NCBI RefSeq assembly: GCF_015207655.1
Contig: NZ_JADEWN010000045.1
Coordinates: forward strand, 1-49,572
DNA length: 49,572 bases
Source: Gloeocapsopsis crepidinum LEGE 06123
Lineage (GTDB): Bacteria > Cyanobacteriota > Cyanobacteriia > Cyanobacteriales > Chroococcidiopsidaceae
Direction: 5' to 3'
In this document: positions 15,663-25,987 of the stretch, one piece after another
How the letters are laid out: each line of letters starts with the position of its first letter
Numbering within the stretch: position 1 is the stretch's first letter
The notes under the pieces: model-generated
What the model was told of the DNA's origin: nothing
Databases searched by the model: none
Seen by the model: the letters and a program-made list of their open reading frames with translations, nothing else
Position numbers and translations under genes: made by a program

Positions 15663-16193
15663 TTAAAAACACATCAAAGTTTCCCGTGTTTCTCGTCCTG
15701 TCATAGGATTAGTTCCTTTTGCGACCTTACACAATTTATCTTGTTCATCGCGACGCAATAGTACGTCAGTAAAATCAGCCCCATCAATCACTGCCTTATC
15801 AAACTTGGCATTTGCGGCAAATGCACCTTCTAATACAGCATCTTTTAAATTGGCATTACTCAACCGTGCTGAATCTAATGTGGCATTTGTCAAGTTTGCG
15901 CCTTCTAAATTAGCTGATTCTAAATTAGCAGCAAACAAACTGACTCCTGCTAAATTTGCGTGACTGAAATTGCTGTTTCGTAGATTAGCATGATTAAAAC
16001 TTGAGTCTGTTAAATCGCGCCCTGAAAAATCATAGTTCAATAGATTTTCTTTGTTGTAATCTAACGCTAACGCTGGGGGAATACTCAGATAAAGCGGAGA
16101 CGCGATCGCACTGACAACTAATACAAAGATCGCTATCTGGCGGCATAACCTAAATATATTCTCAATCATCCAACACTCTTGCCTGTGAACCAT
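15663..16193 (-). CDS. Exported pentapeptide-repeat protein
   Basis: A 176-residue protein with an N-terminal signal (hydrophobic IAIFVLVVSAIASPLYL, then PPALALDY as probable cleavage region). Tandem pentapeptides of the A(N/D)LxN type run from about residue 55 to 145 (for example ANLRNSNFSHANLAG), forming a right-handed beta helix. The C-terminal part has two cysteines (LCKVAKG and LMCF) that could form a disulfide, as in lumenal pentapeptide proteins of chloroplasts and cyanobacteria. Location is probably the thylakoid lumen or periplasm; role unknown. The alternative start ATG at 16169 (MIENIF) gives a more normal signal peptide and may be the true one. Confidence 0.85.
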   Translation of the reverse strand: MVHRQECWMIENIFRLCRQIAIFVLVVSAIASPLYLSIPPALALDYNKENLLNYDFSGRDLTDSSFNHANLRNSNFSHANLAGVSLFAANLESANLEGANLTNATLDSARLSNANLKDAVLEGAFAANAKFDKAVIDGADFTDVLLRRDEQDKLCKVAKGTNPMTGRETRETLMCF

Positions 16194-18643: not shown

Positions 18644-21600
18644 ATGAAGCGCAAGCACAAACAGATTCTAGGCTTTTTATCACACGGCAGTGGTTTTTTG
18701 CTGTCTACTCTGTTACTGTCAGTTGGTGCTGTTGCTCATGCCGAGGTGACACCTAATGCTTCTGAATCAAGGTTGGCGCAAGCAAATACTTTAGAGCGAT
18801 CGCCTCAACTAGCCCAAGTACAGCCACAAGCGCCTACTACAGCATTTGGTACGCAGTCGATAACGTTGTTTAATATCTTATTAGCAACTTTAGTTGTACT
18901 ATTCGGTGCGACATTGCTAGCACTATTTTTCTTACGTAAGTCAGTCATTCGTGGTGTCGCTGATATTGTGATGATGCGGCTTAAAGAAGTTGAAGATATT
19001 CAAAATGAAATTGCTAACGCCGATCGCAAAGTTCAGAATATTTTGCAAGATGCTGAAGAAATCTTAGACGAGATTAACCAAGAAGCAGAAGAGTTACAAC
19101 AGGAAATTGCAGCGCAACGCGAAAACTTATCGCAGATAACGCATCTCTCACAAACACAACAACAACAAGTAGTTACAAAACTTGAAAATCAATTCATAAA
19201 CTCAGAACAATCGCTAAAGAAATTAGCAAGTGAATTTGGAAATGAAATAGTCGGCTTAAAACAACAAACAAAACAGCAGCAAGCTTTAGTTTTACAAAAC
19301 CTTGAACAATTAAAAGAAGAATTTTCTCCACATCTTTTAAAGATTCGAGCGGAAGTTCAAGAAAGAAAAGATACAGTACTGCAAAACTTAGAACAATTTC
19401 AAACAGAAGTAGCCAGCCAAATCAATCAAATTCACCAACAAGCTCAGCAGCAAAGCGATACAATTTTACAAAATATTGAACAACTGACATCTGACTTTAC
19501 TCCTCAACTTTCTACACTATACGCAGAAGTTGAAGCACAAAAGGATAGAATTATTCAAAACTTACAACGCTCGGAAAGTGATTTCGCGGAACAAGTCGAG
19601 CAAATTCAACAACAGTTAACAACACAACGCATTAGTGTTTCACAAGAATTTGAGCGAGTACTAACAGTTTTAAGCCCACAAATATCAGAGATGCAAGCTG
19701 ATATTCAAGCGCAAAAAGAGGCAGTATTACAAAACATTAGACAATCAGAAATAGAATTAGCTGCACAATTAGTACAGATTCAACGACAAGCGCAACAAGA
19801 ATATGATGCCACATTAGATAACTTGAAACAACTAGCATTAGGCTTTGACCCAGATGCAACAGAAATTCAAGCTGATATTCAAGCGCAAAAAGAGGCAGTA
19901 TTACAAAACATTAGACAATCAGAAATAGAATTAGCTGCACAATTAGTACAGATTCAACGGCAAGCGCAGCAAGAATACGATGCCACATTAGATAACTTGA
20001 AACAACTAGCATTAGGCTTTGACCCAGATGCAACAGAAATTCAAGCTAATATTCAATCACAAAAAGAAGCAGTATTACAAAATATTAGGCAATTAGAAAT
20101 AGACTTATCTGCACAATTAGCACAGATTCAACAGCAAGCGCAGCAGGAGTATAATACAACACTAGATAACTTGAAACAGCTAGCACTAGGCTTTAACCCA
20201 GACACAACAGAGATTCAAGCTGATATTCAAGCAGAAAAAGAAGCCATATTACAAAATATACAACAATCTAGAAAAGAATTTGCGGTTCAGCTGGCACAAC
20301 TGCAACAACAAGCGCAAAAACAGCGAGATTTCTTGTTGAAAAATTTAAATCAACTTGTCTCAGAACTAGCTCCACAATTGACAGAACTACAGTCTGATGT
20401 TCAAAATCAGAAAAATGCAGCCATCCAAAATATTAGACAAACAGAAACTGAATTTGTAGCACAAGTTTCTGAGTTGCAAGCAGAAATACAAACACAAAAG
20501 GGTGAAGCTGTCTATCAGCTAGAAGATATAAAAACCGAGCTAGAAAAACGAATTACAGCATTGCAAGCTGAAGTGCAAAAGCAACAAAATACCCTACAAG
20601 AAAGCTTACAACAGCTAGAGACTGATTTAACACCGCATCTTGCAAAAATTCAAACTGAAGCTATAGCAAGACTGCAACAACAAAAAGATGTCACAGTAGA
20701 AAGTTTACAACAGATTCAAAGAGAAGTAACCGCGCAGATTCAAGAGTTTCAATCGCAAACACAAGCGCAACTAGAACAAGAAATTCAAAATTTGCGATCG
20801 CAAGTAGCAGAATTTACGATTCAACTTAGCAATTCTCAAACGGGAATTCAATCGCAACAAGACACTACAATTGAAAATCTGAAAACACTAGCATCCGAGT
20901 GGTCAAATCAACTTGCAGCATTTCAGTCAGAAATTACAAATCGTAAGGAATTAACACTGGAAAATCTAGAGAAACTAGAAAACAGACTAGAAACAGAACT
21001 GGCTGAAGTAAAATCAGATGCTCAAGCCCGTAAAGAACAAATTCTCAAGCAAATAGCAGAAATAACGCCAGCAACAATTGCTCAAGAGGCATTCTCTGAA
21101 GTATCCCAGCAAATTCAAGCCTTATCCGAACAAATAGAACTGTTGAAATCAAACTATCCACAGTTATTTATGCGTCCAGATGATTATATCAATCAGGGAA
21201 ATGCGTTATTTTCTGAAGGACGTTATCAAGAAGCGATCGCATCCTACGAACAGGCACTCGAAATTCAACCTAATAACCCTGATGTCTGCTATCAGCAGGG
21301 CTTGGCGCTGTGGGAATTACAGCAATACGAGTCAGCAATTGCTGCATTTGATAAAGTACTGGAAATCAAACCAGAAGATGCAGCAAGTTGGTATCATCGT
21401 GGACTCGCCTTGAAAGAACTAAAACGCTATGAAGGTGCATTTGCTGCTTTTAGCCAAGTGATTCAAATTCAGCCAGATCATAGCGATGCTTGGTTTAATC
21501 GCGGTATTGTATTAGGAAGACTAAAACGTTATAAAGATGCGATCGCATCGTATGATAAAGCCATTGAACTTAAGCCGGAACACCATCTAGCGTGGGTAGA

Positions 21601-22069
21601 TCGCGGCGTAGCATTAGGTAAATTACAAAACCACGAAGAAGCTTTTCAATCGTTTGATCGCGCAGTACAAGTCAAACCAGATGATGCTGTAGCTTGGATG
21701 AATCGGGGTATGGCATTAGAGGTTCTTGAAAGAATAGAAGATGCGATCGCATCGTACGATAAAGCAATTGAACTCAATCCTGACTACTATAAAGCTTGGA
21801 ACGCTAAAGGATATTTACTCATTCAACTAGAACGAGATCCTGAAGCACTTGAAAGCTTTGATCGAGCTTTACAAATTCAGCCAGATTATCCTAATGCTTA
21901 CTACAATAAAGCAATTTGCTACACTTTCCAAGGAGACGTCAAATTAGCACTAGAGAACTTACAAAAGGCGATTGAATTAAATCCGAAGTATCGCGCTGAA
22001 GCTAGCATTGATCCAGATTTTGAAAGTCTTGCTAACAATCGACGTTTTCGCCAGTTAGTAGAAGAGTAG
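18644..22069 (+). CDS. Giant membrane-anchored coiled-coil protein with C-terminal TPRs
   Basis: A 1141-residue protein. Residues 1-34 resemble a signal sequence, and a strong helix at about 74-97 (NILLATLVVLFGATLLALFF) anchors it. Residues 110-215 are a charged coiled coil. From V216 to about 800 the chain is built of about twenty units of 29 residues, starting VLQNL/ILQNI and alternating between two types, so the higher-order period is 58. Two adjacent 58-residue blocks (nt 19697-19870 and 19871-20044) differ at only three bases. Residues from about 845 form eight 34-residue TPRs (GNALFSEGRYQEAIASYEQALEIQP and following). It is probably a scaffold holding a protein-binding TPR array on a long stalk; no enzymatic motif is seen. 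Confidence 0.88.
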   Translation: MKRKHKQILGFLSHGSGFLLSTLLLSVGAVAHAEVTPNASESRLAQANTLERSPQLAQVQPQAPTTAFGTQSITLFNILLATLVVLFGATLLALFFLRKSVIRGVADIVMMRLKEVEDIQNEIANADRKVQNILQDAEEILDEINQEAEELQQEIAAQRENLSQITHLSQTQQQQVVTKLENQFINSEQSLKKLASEFGNEIVGLKQQTKQQQALVLQNLEQLKEEFSPHLLKIRAEVQERKDTVLQNLEQFQTEVASQINQIHQQAQQQSDTILQNIEQLTSDFTPQLSTLYAEVEAQKDRIIQNLQRSESDFAEQVEQIQQQLTTQRISVSQEFERVLTVLSPQISEMQADIQAQKEAVLQNIRQSEIELAAQLVQIQRQAQQEYDATLDNLKQLALGFDPDATEIQADIQAQKEAVLQNIRQSEIELAAQLVQIQRQAQQEYDATLDNLKQLALGFDPDATEIQANIQSQKEAVLQNIRQLEIDLSAQLAQIQQQAQQEYNTTLDNLKQLALGFNPDTTEIQADIQAEKEAILQNIQQSRKEFAVQLAQLQQQAQKQRDFLLKNLNQLVSELAPQLTELQSDVQNQKNAAIQNIRQTETEFVAQVSELQAEIQTQKGEAVYQLEDIKTELEKRITALQAEVQKQQNTLQESLQQLETDLTPHLAKIQTEAIARLQQQKDVTVESLQQIQREVTAQIQEFQSQTQAQLEQEIQNLRSQVAEFTIQLSNSQTGIQSQQDTTIENLKTLASEWSNQLAAFQSEITNRKELTLENLEKLENRLETELAEVKSDAQARKEQILKQIAEITPATIAQEAFSEVSQQIQALSEQIELLKSNYPQLFMRPDDYINQGNALFSEGRYQEAIASYEQALEIQPNNPDVCYQQGLALWELQQYESAIAAFDKVLEIKPEDAASWYHRGLALKELKRYEGAFAAFSQVIQIQPDHSDAWFNRGIVLGRLKRYKDAIASYDKAIELKPEHHLAWVDRGVALGKLQNHEEAFQSFDRAVQVKPDDAVAWMNRGMALEVLERIEDAIASYDKAIELNPDYYKAWNAKGYLLIQLERDPEALESFDRALQIQPDYPNAYYNKAICYTFQGDVKLALENLQKAIELNPKYRAEASIDPDFESLANNRRFRQLVEE
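19697..20392 (+). repeat. 174-bp tandem repeats inside the coiled-coil gene
   Basis: Units begin at 19697, 19871, 20045 and 20219, exactly 174 bp (58 codons) apart. Units one and two differ at three positions, all third-codon and synonymous. Unit three is more diverged and unit four drifts off. The graded divergence indicates recent unequal crossover or slippage inside an older repeat. Confidence 0.9.
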
Positions 22070-22544: not shown

Positions 22545-23618
22545 CTACGTCCAATACAGTATACGTGCTTCAGGAAAACGTCTGGTAATCTCGCATTCAA
22601 AGAAGCGACGTAGCGCTTTCATGTGGTCGGTATCATAGACATACTTTGTTCCACCAAACTTATTACGCTTGATGCTGCGGTTGTCTTCTTCCATGTCAAG
22701 TTTTGAGTGCGGATACCATGTTTGCAATACTTCTTTTGACTTGGGCGTGAAGCGATGAGAAATTAGCTCAAAGGTCAAGTCGCAACTAAAATCTAAAGTA
22801 GCACTGATTTCATCAAAAAGTCGCGTGTAGTGCAATTCCCAATCATCAATTAACATAATTGGTGCAATGACAATACCCACAGGATAACCGCCACCGCCTT
22901 GATTGCGTGGCAAAGCTAAGCGTCGTAATGCTTGTAAGCGAGAAGATACTGCTGCAGTACCACCTTCAAATCGCCCTGAAACAGGTGCAGCATTGATACT
23001 GACACGGCAACGAGTGTGTCCATTGTGTGGTAAGTCGAGTAAATCATCAACAGCATCAAATTTAGACACCCAACGCAGGTGGGCATTGCTGCGAGTACCA
23101 AAGTAACGAATGCACTCAGCTAAGCTACCTGTAAGATGTTCAATACCAAGTGGATCAGTATAGCAACTGACTTCAAATGTCGTTGCAGAGTCAGGACGTT
23201 CATAGGTTGCCAAATTTTCCAGAATTTGGGGTAAATTAGCAAAGACACGAATAACTGGTGGACCTTGTAAACTACCTGCAAGATAACAATATTGGCAGTG
23301 CGCTGGACAACCTTCTGCAAGATGAAATTGCCAATCTGCGGAAGGAGGAATCGGACTCAACTTAAAATGACTTGGTGGCGCGGTGACAACTGCAAGAGTG
23401 CGTTTAGCGATTTGATACGTCTCCCGTTCAGAATCACCACGTAAACCTGAAAGGCGATTTTGAGAAAGTTCTTCGATGGGTAAATCAAGTGCTTGAATGC
23501 GTGATAGAATCTTTTGTCCCCACGGCTGATCGAGTGCAGCAGGTGTAAATAACACGCGTTCTGGCATCCACAAACGAGAAGAGGAGGTTTGTGTTGCTGA
23601 TTTAGTTAAAATCGTCAT
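22545..23618 (-). CDS. Spore-photoproduct-lyase-like radical SAM protein
   Basis: A 357-residue radical SAM protein. The cluster motif is CPAHCQYCYL with C104, C108 and C111 (Cx3Cx2C), which reductively cleaves SAM. The order of N-terminal region, cluster and the later segments CYTDPLGIEHLTGSLAE and WVSKFDAVDDLLDLPHNGHTR matches the SPL family. Bacillus SplB repairs the thymine spore photoproduct with UV-damaged DNA as substrate. Cyanobacteria make no endospores, so a role in DNA photoproduct repair under desiccation or UV is a guess. The gene is monocistronic, transcribed in the same direction as the ThDP enzyme upstream. Confidence 0.88.
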   Translation of the reverse strand: MTILTKSATQTSSSRLWMPERVLFTPAALDQPWGQKILSRIQALDLPIEELSQNRLSGLRGDSERETYQIAKRTLAVVTAPPSHFKLSPIPPSADWQFHLAEGCPAHCQYCYLAGSLQGPPVIRVFANLPQILENLATYERPDSATTFEVSCYTDPLGIEHLTGSLAECIRYFGTRSNAHLRWVSKFDAVDDLLDLPHNGHTRCRVSINAAPVSGRFEGGTAAVSSRLQALRRLALPRNQGGGGYPVGIVIAPIMLIDDWELHYTRLFDEISATLDFSCDLTFELISHRFTPKSKEVLQTWYPHSKLDMEEDNRSIKRNKFGGTKYVYDTDHMKALRRFFECEITRRFPEARILYWT

Positions 23619-23764: not shown

Positions 23765-25987
23765 CTATTGGTCAATTAGTGCCATTGCACGGTTGACGAG
23801 ATTTTCAGCAGTTAACCCATTAAGTGCCATTAATTGTGCAGGGCTAGCGGTTGTTTCTCCTCGTTTCCAAGCGAAGGTGTCGCGTTTGGCGGTACTGCGT
23901 AGCATGATTGGTTCTAGCATACCACTCGCCCCAGCGGTGACTCCAATTAAAGCATCGCCACCAAATAACTGGTCGAATTCCGCATCATCTAAGAAATCAC
24001 CATCAGGTTCTGCACAGCTATCCCACGCTACATCTGTAGGACGATACAAGCGACGAGGATTAACAACAGAGACAACCCGAACGCCAACTTCTTGAACAGC
24101 TAGTGCAGATGCAGCTTCTAGTACTGGTAACAACACCATGTCACCCACAACCGCAAACACAACTGTTTTATTGCCAGAGGCTTCTTGCAATACAATTGCG
24201 CCATCTGCAAGTGCTTTTCTATCTTGTTCAAATGTTGTGCGAATTGGTAGTGGCGACTTACTAGCAGTAATCACAATACCTTTATTCTTAGTTGTCAACG
24301 CCCACTCATAAGCAACTTGAATGCAGTTGGCATCTGGGGGAAAGAGTGGAAAGACGTTGCCATTGCGCATCATGGCGGCAAAATATGCTTCAACTTCTGG
24401 GCGTTGGTGCGTCCACCCGTTACGACCTTGTTCTAATGCCCCAGCAGTGAATAAAGTGACAGTAGAAGGAGTAGGACGGCGTAATTCTGCCATTGCTTGC
24501 GTGACTGTTTGCCAAATTGGTAAACCATTAATGGCAAATGATTCATAAGAACACCATAAAGTCCGGCTGCCCATGAGGGCGGAACCTGCGGCTAAACCGG
24601 CACAAGCATCTTCGCTGAGTGGTTCATAAACTTGTCCGCCAGGTTTTTGGTTATACAGCGGATCTTCGACTGGGTGAATAATTTTGAGGGCTTGGTTGAT
24701 ATTGGCAATTCCTGAGGCTTCGTTTCCATCGGCATTTGTGACTAAGAAACTGCGATCGCACTCTCCAACTTTACCTACCAGTCGTCCCATTGCTGTTGTT
24801 GCAACTTTAGGATCGCCACCTACTGCGTATTCTTCTAATGGTAAATCCTTAATTTCTGGTAATTCTAAGACAGATTCTGTTACAGCAACACGACTCGCTG
24901 GACCACCACCTGCACGTTCAAAGTTTGTCCGAACGAGTTGCCAAGCTTCTGGGGCTAATGCACGGGCTTTGAGTGCATTCACGATATCTGGATTATCTAG
25001 CGTATGCATGGCATAGAGGTTATGCGATTTTGCTCCTCTAGCGTGTACTCCAGCGCCTTTTAATTGTTTAATAATCAATACTGTGCGCGTTCCACTTAAC
25101 GCAGATTTTGTCGCTTCATCAGCGGCGATTAAGACAGCTTCTGTAAATGCCAAGCGTTGCTCGAAGGAAAAAGCCGTACTATCGACAAAGTTGCCCTGCT
25201 GATCTCGATCGTCAAAATCTTTGGCATCGACTAAGACAACTTCTTCAAAGCCGTTACCGTGCCAATATGCCATCATTTGCTCATTTGATTGCGTAGAAAC
25301 CATACTATGATGCTCTTGGCTAAAGCCGTTCCACACTAGCACTGGTAAAAAATTAGTCATTCCTGGATAGGCGGTGTGAAAATGCGCCATACTGCTCATA
25401 ATGTATGGTTCGCCTAAACCACCATCACCAATTGTCACAGGAAACAGTTTATCAGGGTTTAACCTGGCAGCTGACATAGCAAAGTGCTGCCCTTGCCCTA
25501 AAGGACCCGCAGGTGAGAGAATTCCTGGGATGTAGCCGGATAAGTGACCGAGTAAGCCGTGATGTTCGCGGAAGCGATCGCGTAGTTGCTGTACGGTTTC
25601 AATTCCCATATCCTCTAGAGAACGATCGAGAAACATCGCACTGTAAAATCCTGGTGCGTGATGCCCTACTTCAGTAACGATGTTTTTATGCCCTAGCATG
25701 ACTAATGCGGCATAGGCTTCGACTTGGCTAGCAAATCCGCCTGGATGACCTGAAGCTTTGCTGGCAGTAACTTGTAATGTCAGGTAGCGCAATGCATCAG
25801 CAGCTAGTAGCGTTTGGAAGACGACAGCCGGATCTTTAGGATCGCTAATTGAGGTACTACCAGAGGCGATCGCAGCTTCTTTGCTATACTTCTCAAACTC
25901 TGGCAGCATTTCTCCAAAATATTGAATTCCTTGACAGAAGTCTGGAGTTGCTAACTTTGCCGCTTGGGTCGATGCCGTCATGCTCAA
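23765..25987 (-). CDS. Transketolase/phosphoketolase-like ThDP-dependent enzyme
   Basis: A 740-residue thiamine-diphosphate enzyme. It has HPGG at 81-84, AGPLGQG near 160-166 and the ThDP-binding motif GDG (187-189) ending with N220-G in FLPVLVWNG. That ending resembles the LPILHLNG form in phosphoketolases rather than the classical transketolase form. The pyrimidine-binding and C-terminal domains follow. In cyanobacteria a group of about 740 residues is annotated either as transketolase or as a second phosphoketolase; I cannot decide between them, since standard Xfp proteins are about 800 residues. Carbon-flux enzymes of either kind would act on xylulose-5-P or fructose-6-P. Confidence 0.8.
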   Translation of the reverse strand: MSMTASTQAAKLATPDFCQGIQYFGEMLPEFEKYSKEAAIASGSTSISDPKDPAVVFQTLLAADALRYLTLQVTASKASGHPGGFASQVEAYAALVMLGHKNIVTEVGHHAPGFYSAMFLDRSLEDMGIETVQQLRDRFREHHGLLGHLSGYIPGILSPAGPLGQGQHFAMSAARLNPDKLFPVTIGDGGLGEPYIMSSMAHFHTAYPGMTNFLPVLVWNGFSQEHHSMVSTQSNEQMMAYWHGNGFEEVVLVDAKDFDDRDQQGNFVDSTAFSFEQRLAFTEAVLIAADEATKSALSGTRTVLIIKQLKGAGVHARGAKSHNLYAMHTLDNPDIVNALKARALAPEAWQLVRTNFERAGGGPASRVAVTESVLELPEIKDLPLEEYAVGGDPKVATTAMGRLVGKVGECDRSFLVTNADGNEASGIANINQALKIIHPVEDPLYNQKPGGQVYEPLSEDACAGLAAGSALMGSRTLWCSYESFAINGLPIWQTVTQAMAELRRPTPSTVTLFTAGALEQGRNGWTHQRPEVEAYFAAMMRNGNVFPLFPPDANCIQVAYEWALTTKNKGIVITASKSPLPIRTTFEQDRKALADGAIVLQEASGNKTVVFAVVGDMVLLPVLEAASALAVQEVGVRVVSVVNPRRLYRPTDVAWDSCAEPDGDFLDDAEFDQLFGGDALIGVTAGASGMLEPIMLRSTAKRDTFAWKRGETTASPAQLMALNGLTAENLVNRAMALIDQ

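Follow-up and report, generated by a model that had tools for sequence, protein, structure and literature searches.

The gene at 18644..22069 on the forward strand of the window (the whole analyzed stretch of 49,572 nucleotides from Gloeocapsopsis crepidinum LEGE 06123) encodes a protein of 1141 residues in which a signal-peptide-like start and a membrane helix are followed by a long coil with a 29-residue period and by a TPR head. The protein belongs to a widespread and apparently unstudied cyanobacterial family, whose coils often lengthen or shorten by entire 29-residue modules, with the helical register kept. The architecture is well supported, and from it we infer, at a probability of about 0.5, that the protein acts as a membrane tether or scaffold: a nearly straight, oligomeric rod facing the cytoplasm, about 105 nm long, with a TPR head to which a partner binds. 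The features are as follows:

18644..22069, forward strand: whole gene, 1141 residues (signal peptide, membrane helix, 29-residue coil, TPR head)
18644..18742, forward strand: signal-peptide-like start, residues 1-33 (MKRK..., ...VAHA/E), read from the sequence
18863..18934, forward strand: membrane helix, residues ~74-97, then basic residues (family charge pattern; helix from residue 74 in the model)
18935..19288, forward strand: membrane-proximal coil, residues 98-215; part of profile A1, which also spans the membrane helix
19289..20680, forward strand: 16 coil units of 29 residues each (216-679), types alternating over units 1-13
19724..20245, forward strand: three tandem modules of 58 residues (174 bp), residues 361-534
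20681..20692, forward strand: 4-residue insert, residues 680-683
20693..21040, forward strand: final four coil units, residues 684-799
21041..21184, forward strand: coil end and linker, residues 800-847, outside the repeat; L801 is the C-side anchor for measuring
21185..22063, forward strand: eight TPRs and C-terminal TPR_END_plus domain, residues 848-1140 (Pfam/NCBIfam, model)

The periodicity of the coil was determined by autocorrelation over residues 206-815, which peaked at lags 58 (2.07), 116 (1.56), 29 (1.20) and 87 (0.93). Lags 28 (-1.05) and 30 (-0.92) both lay under the shuffled mean, and in the shuffled control lag 29 had a mean of -0.38 with a standard deviation of 0.08. Cutting at 29 residues from V216 gave 16 in-frame units up to residue 679 and, after the 4-residue insert, four further units up to residue 799, i.e. 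the twenty or so units with one 4-residue insertion that the initial annotation had described. The same annotation had proposed two alternating unit types with a 58-residue super-period. This alternation is regular in units 1-13 (residues 216-592), where identity is 0.48 between units of the same parity vs 0.27 between units of different parity, and is lost afterwards; when recently duplicated units were left out, the values were 0.39 (9 pairs) and 0.28 (12 pairs), respectively. The units had been placed from residue 216 onward; the coil itself begins further N-terminal, directly after the membrane helix (helix from residue 74 in the predicted model). Seven prolines are spaced by 58 residues (229, 287, 345, 403, 461, 519 and 577), each placed two positions after a hydrophobic residue, and an eighth coil proline is found at position 664.

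A 28-residue heptad coil was rejected, since lag 28 is negative, lags 29 and 58 dominate and a heptad a/d frame captures 0.30 hydrophobics vs 0.28 overall in the window protein. The hydrophobic Fourier peak of the coil is at 3.625 residues. An even 11+11+7 frame reached 0.76 hydrophobics, compared with 0.68 and 0.71 for the frames of heptads plus a skip residue and 0.78 for a free choice of spacing. PMC9858780, in the sections drawn on here, gives 3.63 residues per turn for a helix without distortion and describes the supercoil of hendecads as very slight. By arithmetic, the period of 3.625 lies within 0.01 of this value (PMC9858780, same sections), hence a nearly straight rod is expected. The earlier suggestion of a hendecad-rich, near-straight coil is supported as regards the non-heptad spacing and the period. 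As to hendecads, the window protein favors the even 11+11+7 frame, and over the family the two layouts balance: of 97 proteins, 41 fit the even frame better and 42 the heptad-plus-skip frames, with 14 ties. The hydrophobic stripe is narrow (positions at least 0.55 hydrophobic cover about 125 degrees of the helical wheel), and the proline position lies opposite to it, at -179 degrees. In the proposed working of the protein, several copies of the coil would associate to form a rod with almost no supercoil. Two units of 29 residues, 58 residues together, would be its building block, and one unit corresponds to eight whole helical turns; the distance between the two anchors amounts to about 105 nm if the helix is continuous.

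The membrane anchor at one end and the eight TPRs at the other were both recovered, as initially annotated. The C-side flank of the membrane helix carries more positive charge than the N-side flank in 91 of the 97 family proteins (mean net charges over the family of +2.1 and +0.06, respectively), and a signal-like hydrophobic stretch with two or more K/R before it lies N-terminal of this helix in 92 of the 97. The positive-inside rule states that the basic flank of a membrane helix is on the cytoplasmic side. Applied to the C-side charge and taken together with the signal-peptide pattern, this rule would place the coil and the TPR head in the cytoplasm, and a periplasmic coil was rejected by inference from the same pattern. 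The signal peptide and the membrane helix would thereby leave the remaining chain in the cytoplasm.

PF00515 (TPR_1), the model for the 34-residue helix-turn-helix repeat, matched eight stretches with 234.4 bits, above the Pfam cut-off, and the TPR end domain TPR_END_plus was found by NCBIfam. An AF2 model was built as a single chain with 8 sequences. The predicted TPR head (848-1140) has pLDDT values mostly above 90, its closest structures are consensus TPR superhelices (TM-score 0.92 by target length) and it also resembles the TPR of O-GlcNAc transferase. The coil is predicted to be helical with low confidence (pLDDT 35-59 per 10-residue block). In this model, helix breaks fall on prolines 403, 461, 519 and 664, half of the eight in the coil (the other four lie inside helices), so that a continuous rod is not assured. 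A search with residues 216-679 found no solved structure matching by sequence at E <= 0.01. Oligomerization and an extended form of the coil, whose model is a single chain of low pLDDT, are therefore expected rather than observed, and it is at the distal end of the rod, some 105 nm from the anchor (again for a continuous helix), that the TPR head would dock a partner protein.

To define the family, profile A1 was used, whose 150 positions cover the membrane helix and the proximal coil. At E <= 0.001, 153 of the order's 291 genomes had a match, representing 67 of 121 genera; 104 of the 153 matches were strong (E <= 1.2e-17) and the remainder weak, including a shorter second class. Phylum-wide, 53 of 386 genomes had matches at E <= 1e-15, and four of these 53 belong to other orders. 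The G. crepidinum genome contains one strong match, i.e. the protein is single-copy there and a paralogue in its own genome was rejected. Full-length orthologues comprise 16 proteins including that of the window, all from the window genome's own family (f1), and lag 29 was found at z >= 9.8 in all 16. For the wider comparison, proteins were taken from 104 genomes (101 of the 104 with strong matches plus three with weak ones), yielding 106 proteins. Both anchors were found in 102; five were dropped before counting, three belonging to the short-coil class and two being cut by contig ends, which left 97. The initial annotation had suggested a search for homologues with a 29-residue period, and these exist: lag 29 is among the top three lags in 95 of the 97 proteins and lag 58 in 91; only 53 of the 97 show a higher value at lag 58 than at lag 29. 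The Fourier peak falls at 3.61-3.64 in 92 of the 97 and below 3.55 in none; one genus of f1 (g6) carries one-turn deletions and has a period of 3.64-3.66. A comparison of 51 loci, some with flanks ending at contig ends, revealed no conserved operon or partner gene. The commonest neighbor cluster occurred in 11 of the 51 and queA preceded the gene in 6, and a conserved operon was rejected on these counts.

The same annotation had suggested comparing unit number between strains. Coil length was measured from R98, the arginine after the membrane helix, to L801, the leucine at the coil end, and ranged from 322 to 703 residues among the 97 proteins. Fifty-three of these coils (that of the window included) fall in the class of the window protein modulo 29 (class 0) and take twelve different values between 355 and 703; when each genus-length pair was counted once, 31 of 57 did so. 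Shared ancestry was removed by pairing tree tips with non-overlapping paths, which gave 29 sister pairs unequal in length. Seventeen of them differ by exact multiples of 29, 14 of these 17 by multiples of 58 (binomial p 5e-18 for 17/29 against a chance of 1 in 29, a crude null because DNA repeat slippage alone also gives whole-unit steps). The other twelve pairs differ by 1, 3, 7, 11 (three times), 33, 50, 62, 65, 94 and 131 residues and cluster in helical phase (Rayleigh p ~0.0025, n=12), 11 of the 12 lying within 0.21 turn, where 45% would be expected for a bound that was chosen after seeing the data. With an alternative C-side anchor in the first TPR, mapped in 45 of the 106 proteins, 33 of the 45 were exact multiples of 29 (relatives kept in). 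The phase of the prolines modulo 58 was also compared across the 53 proteins of class 0 (relatives kept in): counted from the membrane side, a single phase holds 151 of 199, while counted from the coil end they split 99/81. The quantum is not universal: one of 16 distinct lengths falls in class 0 in family f33, which above all departs from it, and none does so in f2 (0/3), f13 (0/2) and f24 (0/1); in f1, two of eight distinct lengths lie outside class 0. Length changes of this kind would alter the reach of the rod largely by whole modules while keeping the helical register from membrane to head, and the gain or loss of a 58-residue module may leave the orientation of the head towards the anchor as it was.

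At the DNA level, a 174-bp tandem repeat was found inside the coding array at 19686-20280. Copies 1 and 2 differ in 7 of 174 bases, and copy 3 differs from them in 25 and 24, respectively; alignment places the 58-residue difference from proteins of the same genus at residues 361-534. Such near-identical copies, together with the wide span of anchor-to-anchor lengths, would also be expected if length had no function and arose by repeat slippage, with selection removing only those changes that break the frame or the register. This explanation is compatible with a tether and, as an account in its own right, we consider it rather doubtful. Slippage combined with register-keeping selection may nevertheless be the whole cause of the length series. 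Because the phase tends to persist even when a change is not a multiple of 29, at least the register appears to be selected. In a different reading, the coil would fold back on itself as spectrin-like or hairpin bundles. The prolines spaced by 58 residues would then break the helix, resulting in a shorter elastic arm. The recurring hydrophobic-x-proline pattern may mark helix starts, in line with the four predicted breaks, but the remaining four prolines sit within helices of a model of low confidence, the proline position faces away from the hydrophobic stripe and the forward coil has no Spectrin match, a match of 20 bits being obtained with the reversed control alone. We regard such bundles as improbable.

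Profile matches in the coil bear on two further readings. SF-assemblin forms 2-nm striated filaments, and its model PF06705 is the best Pfam match in the coil, with 49.6 bits for the whole protein (cut-off 30.6) and 53.1 bits for residues 216-679, spanning 140 protein residues and 140 profile positions; it matches 11 of 16 family members at E <= 0.01. The match was lost when one residue per unit was removed (two positions tried), when the chain was reversed and when it was fully shuffled, and fell to 18.6 bits when surface residues were shuffled within units (one version of each control), indicating that the likeness lies in period, direction and surface pattern beyond composition. The main rival to a tether is a cytoskeletal filament former of the SF-assemblin kind: owing to their 29-residue units, rods would pack side by side with a stagger into fibers beneath the membrane, cross-linked by the TPRs. 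That a cyanobacterial TPR protein, All4981, forms filaments (as stated in the text of PMC7002697 drawn on here) is in keeping with this reading. Against it, axial charge banding was sought in the coil and nothing strong was found, the best charge periods (14.75 and 18.25 residues) being weak, and the membrane anchor and the long TPR head would be extra parts. Moreover, SF-assemblin is described from eukaryotes in the consulted part of the review PMC8435291, and All4981 was compared by description only. We consider a filament former unlikely. Amphipathic repeats lying flat on the membrane, as in apolipoproteins, were rejected and seem highly improbable: the Apolipoprotein profile (PF01442) does match and prolines do lie between helices, but its scores of 30.6, 35.7 and 32.9 bits are all under the 90-bit cut-off and the hydrophobic stripe is narrow. 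Since the reversed (36.3 bits) and surface-shuffled (37.9 bits) controls outscore the native coil, the PF01442 matches reflect composition only.

The family offers a natural series in which a single rod varies in length, largely stepwise, over the stretch from R98 to L801, and with which one can ask whether bacteria gauge distance from the membrane with coils. It also provides a test case for the design of straight non-heptad coils, as its period matches that of an undistorted alpha helix. If the rods pack laterally like SF-assemblin, they would constitute a new membrane-linked cytoskeletal element. The analysis defines a widespread, apparently uncharacterized cyanobacterial family with an unusual length quantum.

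The initial annotation knew of no described family with this layout. In agreement with this, profile searches with Pfam and NCBIfam gave no model that extends over the full 1141 residues, and no paper on it was recognized in the literature on bacterial and cyanobacterial coiled coils, hendecads, 29-residue repeats and TPR. The 29-residue coil itself, however, is not new. The review PMC8435291, in the part drawn on here, describes SF-assemblin as a non-helical head plus a rod of consecutive 29-residue motifs, each consisting of four heptads and a skip residue, and the SF-assemblin/beta-giardin rod thus resembles the coil described here in its motif length, as well as through the PF06705 match above cut-off. 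In contrast, the protein analyzed here is cyanobacterial, has a signal peptide, a membrane helix and eight TPRs, and its coil shows a 58-residue alternation with prolines. As the architecture differs, the core spacing over the family fits heptads plus a skip and an even 11+11+7 about equally often, and any common descent would be putative, we do not file the protein with SF-assemblin. All4981 and other cyanobacterial coiled-coil-rich proteins likewise contain TPRs and/or coiled coils; in the portions of PMC7002697 and PMC7766704 used here, All4981 has about 650 residues, its COILS-predicted coils are TPRs and a membrane helix is not mentioned. FilP and Scy are long non-heptad bacterial coils which, like the present one, grow by repeat expansion, but they carry a DivIVA-like N-terminal motif and hendecads (PMC9858780, in the sections cited above). 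A DivIVA model was absent from the Pfam and NCBIfam matches of the 1141-residue protein at E <= 0.1. Golgins are eukaryotic membrane-anchored long coils that hold a binding site away from the membrane, and the analogy to them is purely functional, the likeness being that of a membrane-anchored long coil with a distant binding site. Tentatively, and at less than even odds, we propose that the family is a bacterial counterpart of such long membrane tethers, namely an anchored, unsupercoiled 29/8 rod that carries a TPR docking head, changes its reach in steps of 58 residues (~8.6 nm) and, starting from the membrane, keeps both its helical phase and its lattice of prolines constant; it would at the same time represent an independent or anciently related solution sharing the 29-residue rod logic of SF-assemblin.

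In genus g6, a genus within the window's own family, the coils of four homologues (L048-L051, and weakly a fifth, L047) have a super-period of 55 residues, not 58, which results from about one helical turn missing from some of the coil units. The gene for the cyanobacterial coil-TPR protein is also present on a contig deposited as Tatlockia (a MAG; homologue L089 / L048); this contig is identical in length (9353) to that of genome G017 of the window's family and is probably from a mislabelled bin.

Other genes noted in the window, all on the minus strand:

15663-16193, minus strand, short protein of pentapeptide repeats whose N-terminus resembles a signal peptide (highest-scoring model HetL, 57 bits, cut-off 260)
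22545-23618, minus strand, protein matching TIGR04070, a model for spore photoproduct lyase (321 bits, cut-off 400)
23765-25987, minus strand, phosphoketolase/transketolase-like protein

The TIGR04070 match, which is below the cut-off, comes from a cyanobacterium. The phosphoketolase/transketolase-like protein scored far under the cut-off for all 10 of the models among the matches listed.

A second, shorter class of proteins (L124, L125, L126 and L127; open frames of 619-717 aa) begins with a membrane helix weakly similar to that of the main coil-TPR protein. The coil of this class spans only about 130-170 residues and its TPR array is longer than in the main family, to which the class may be paralogous.
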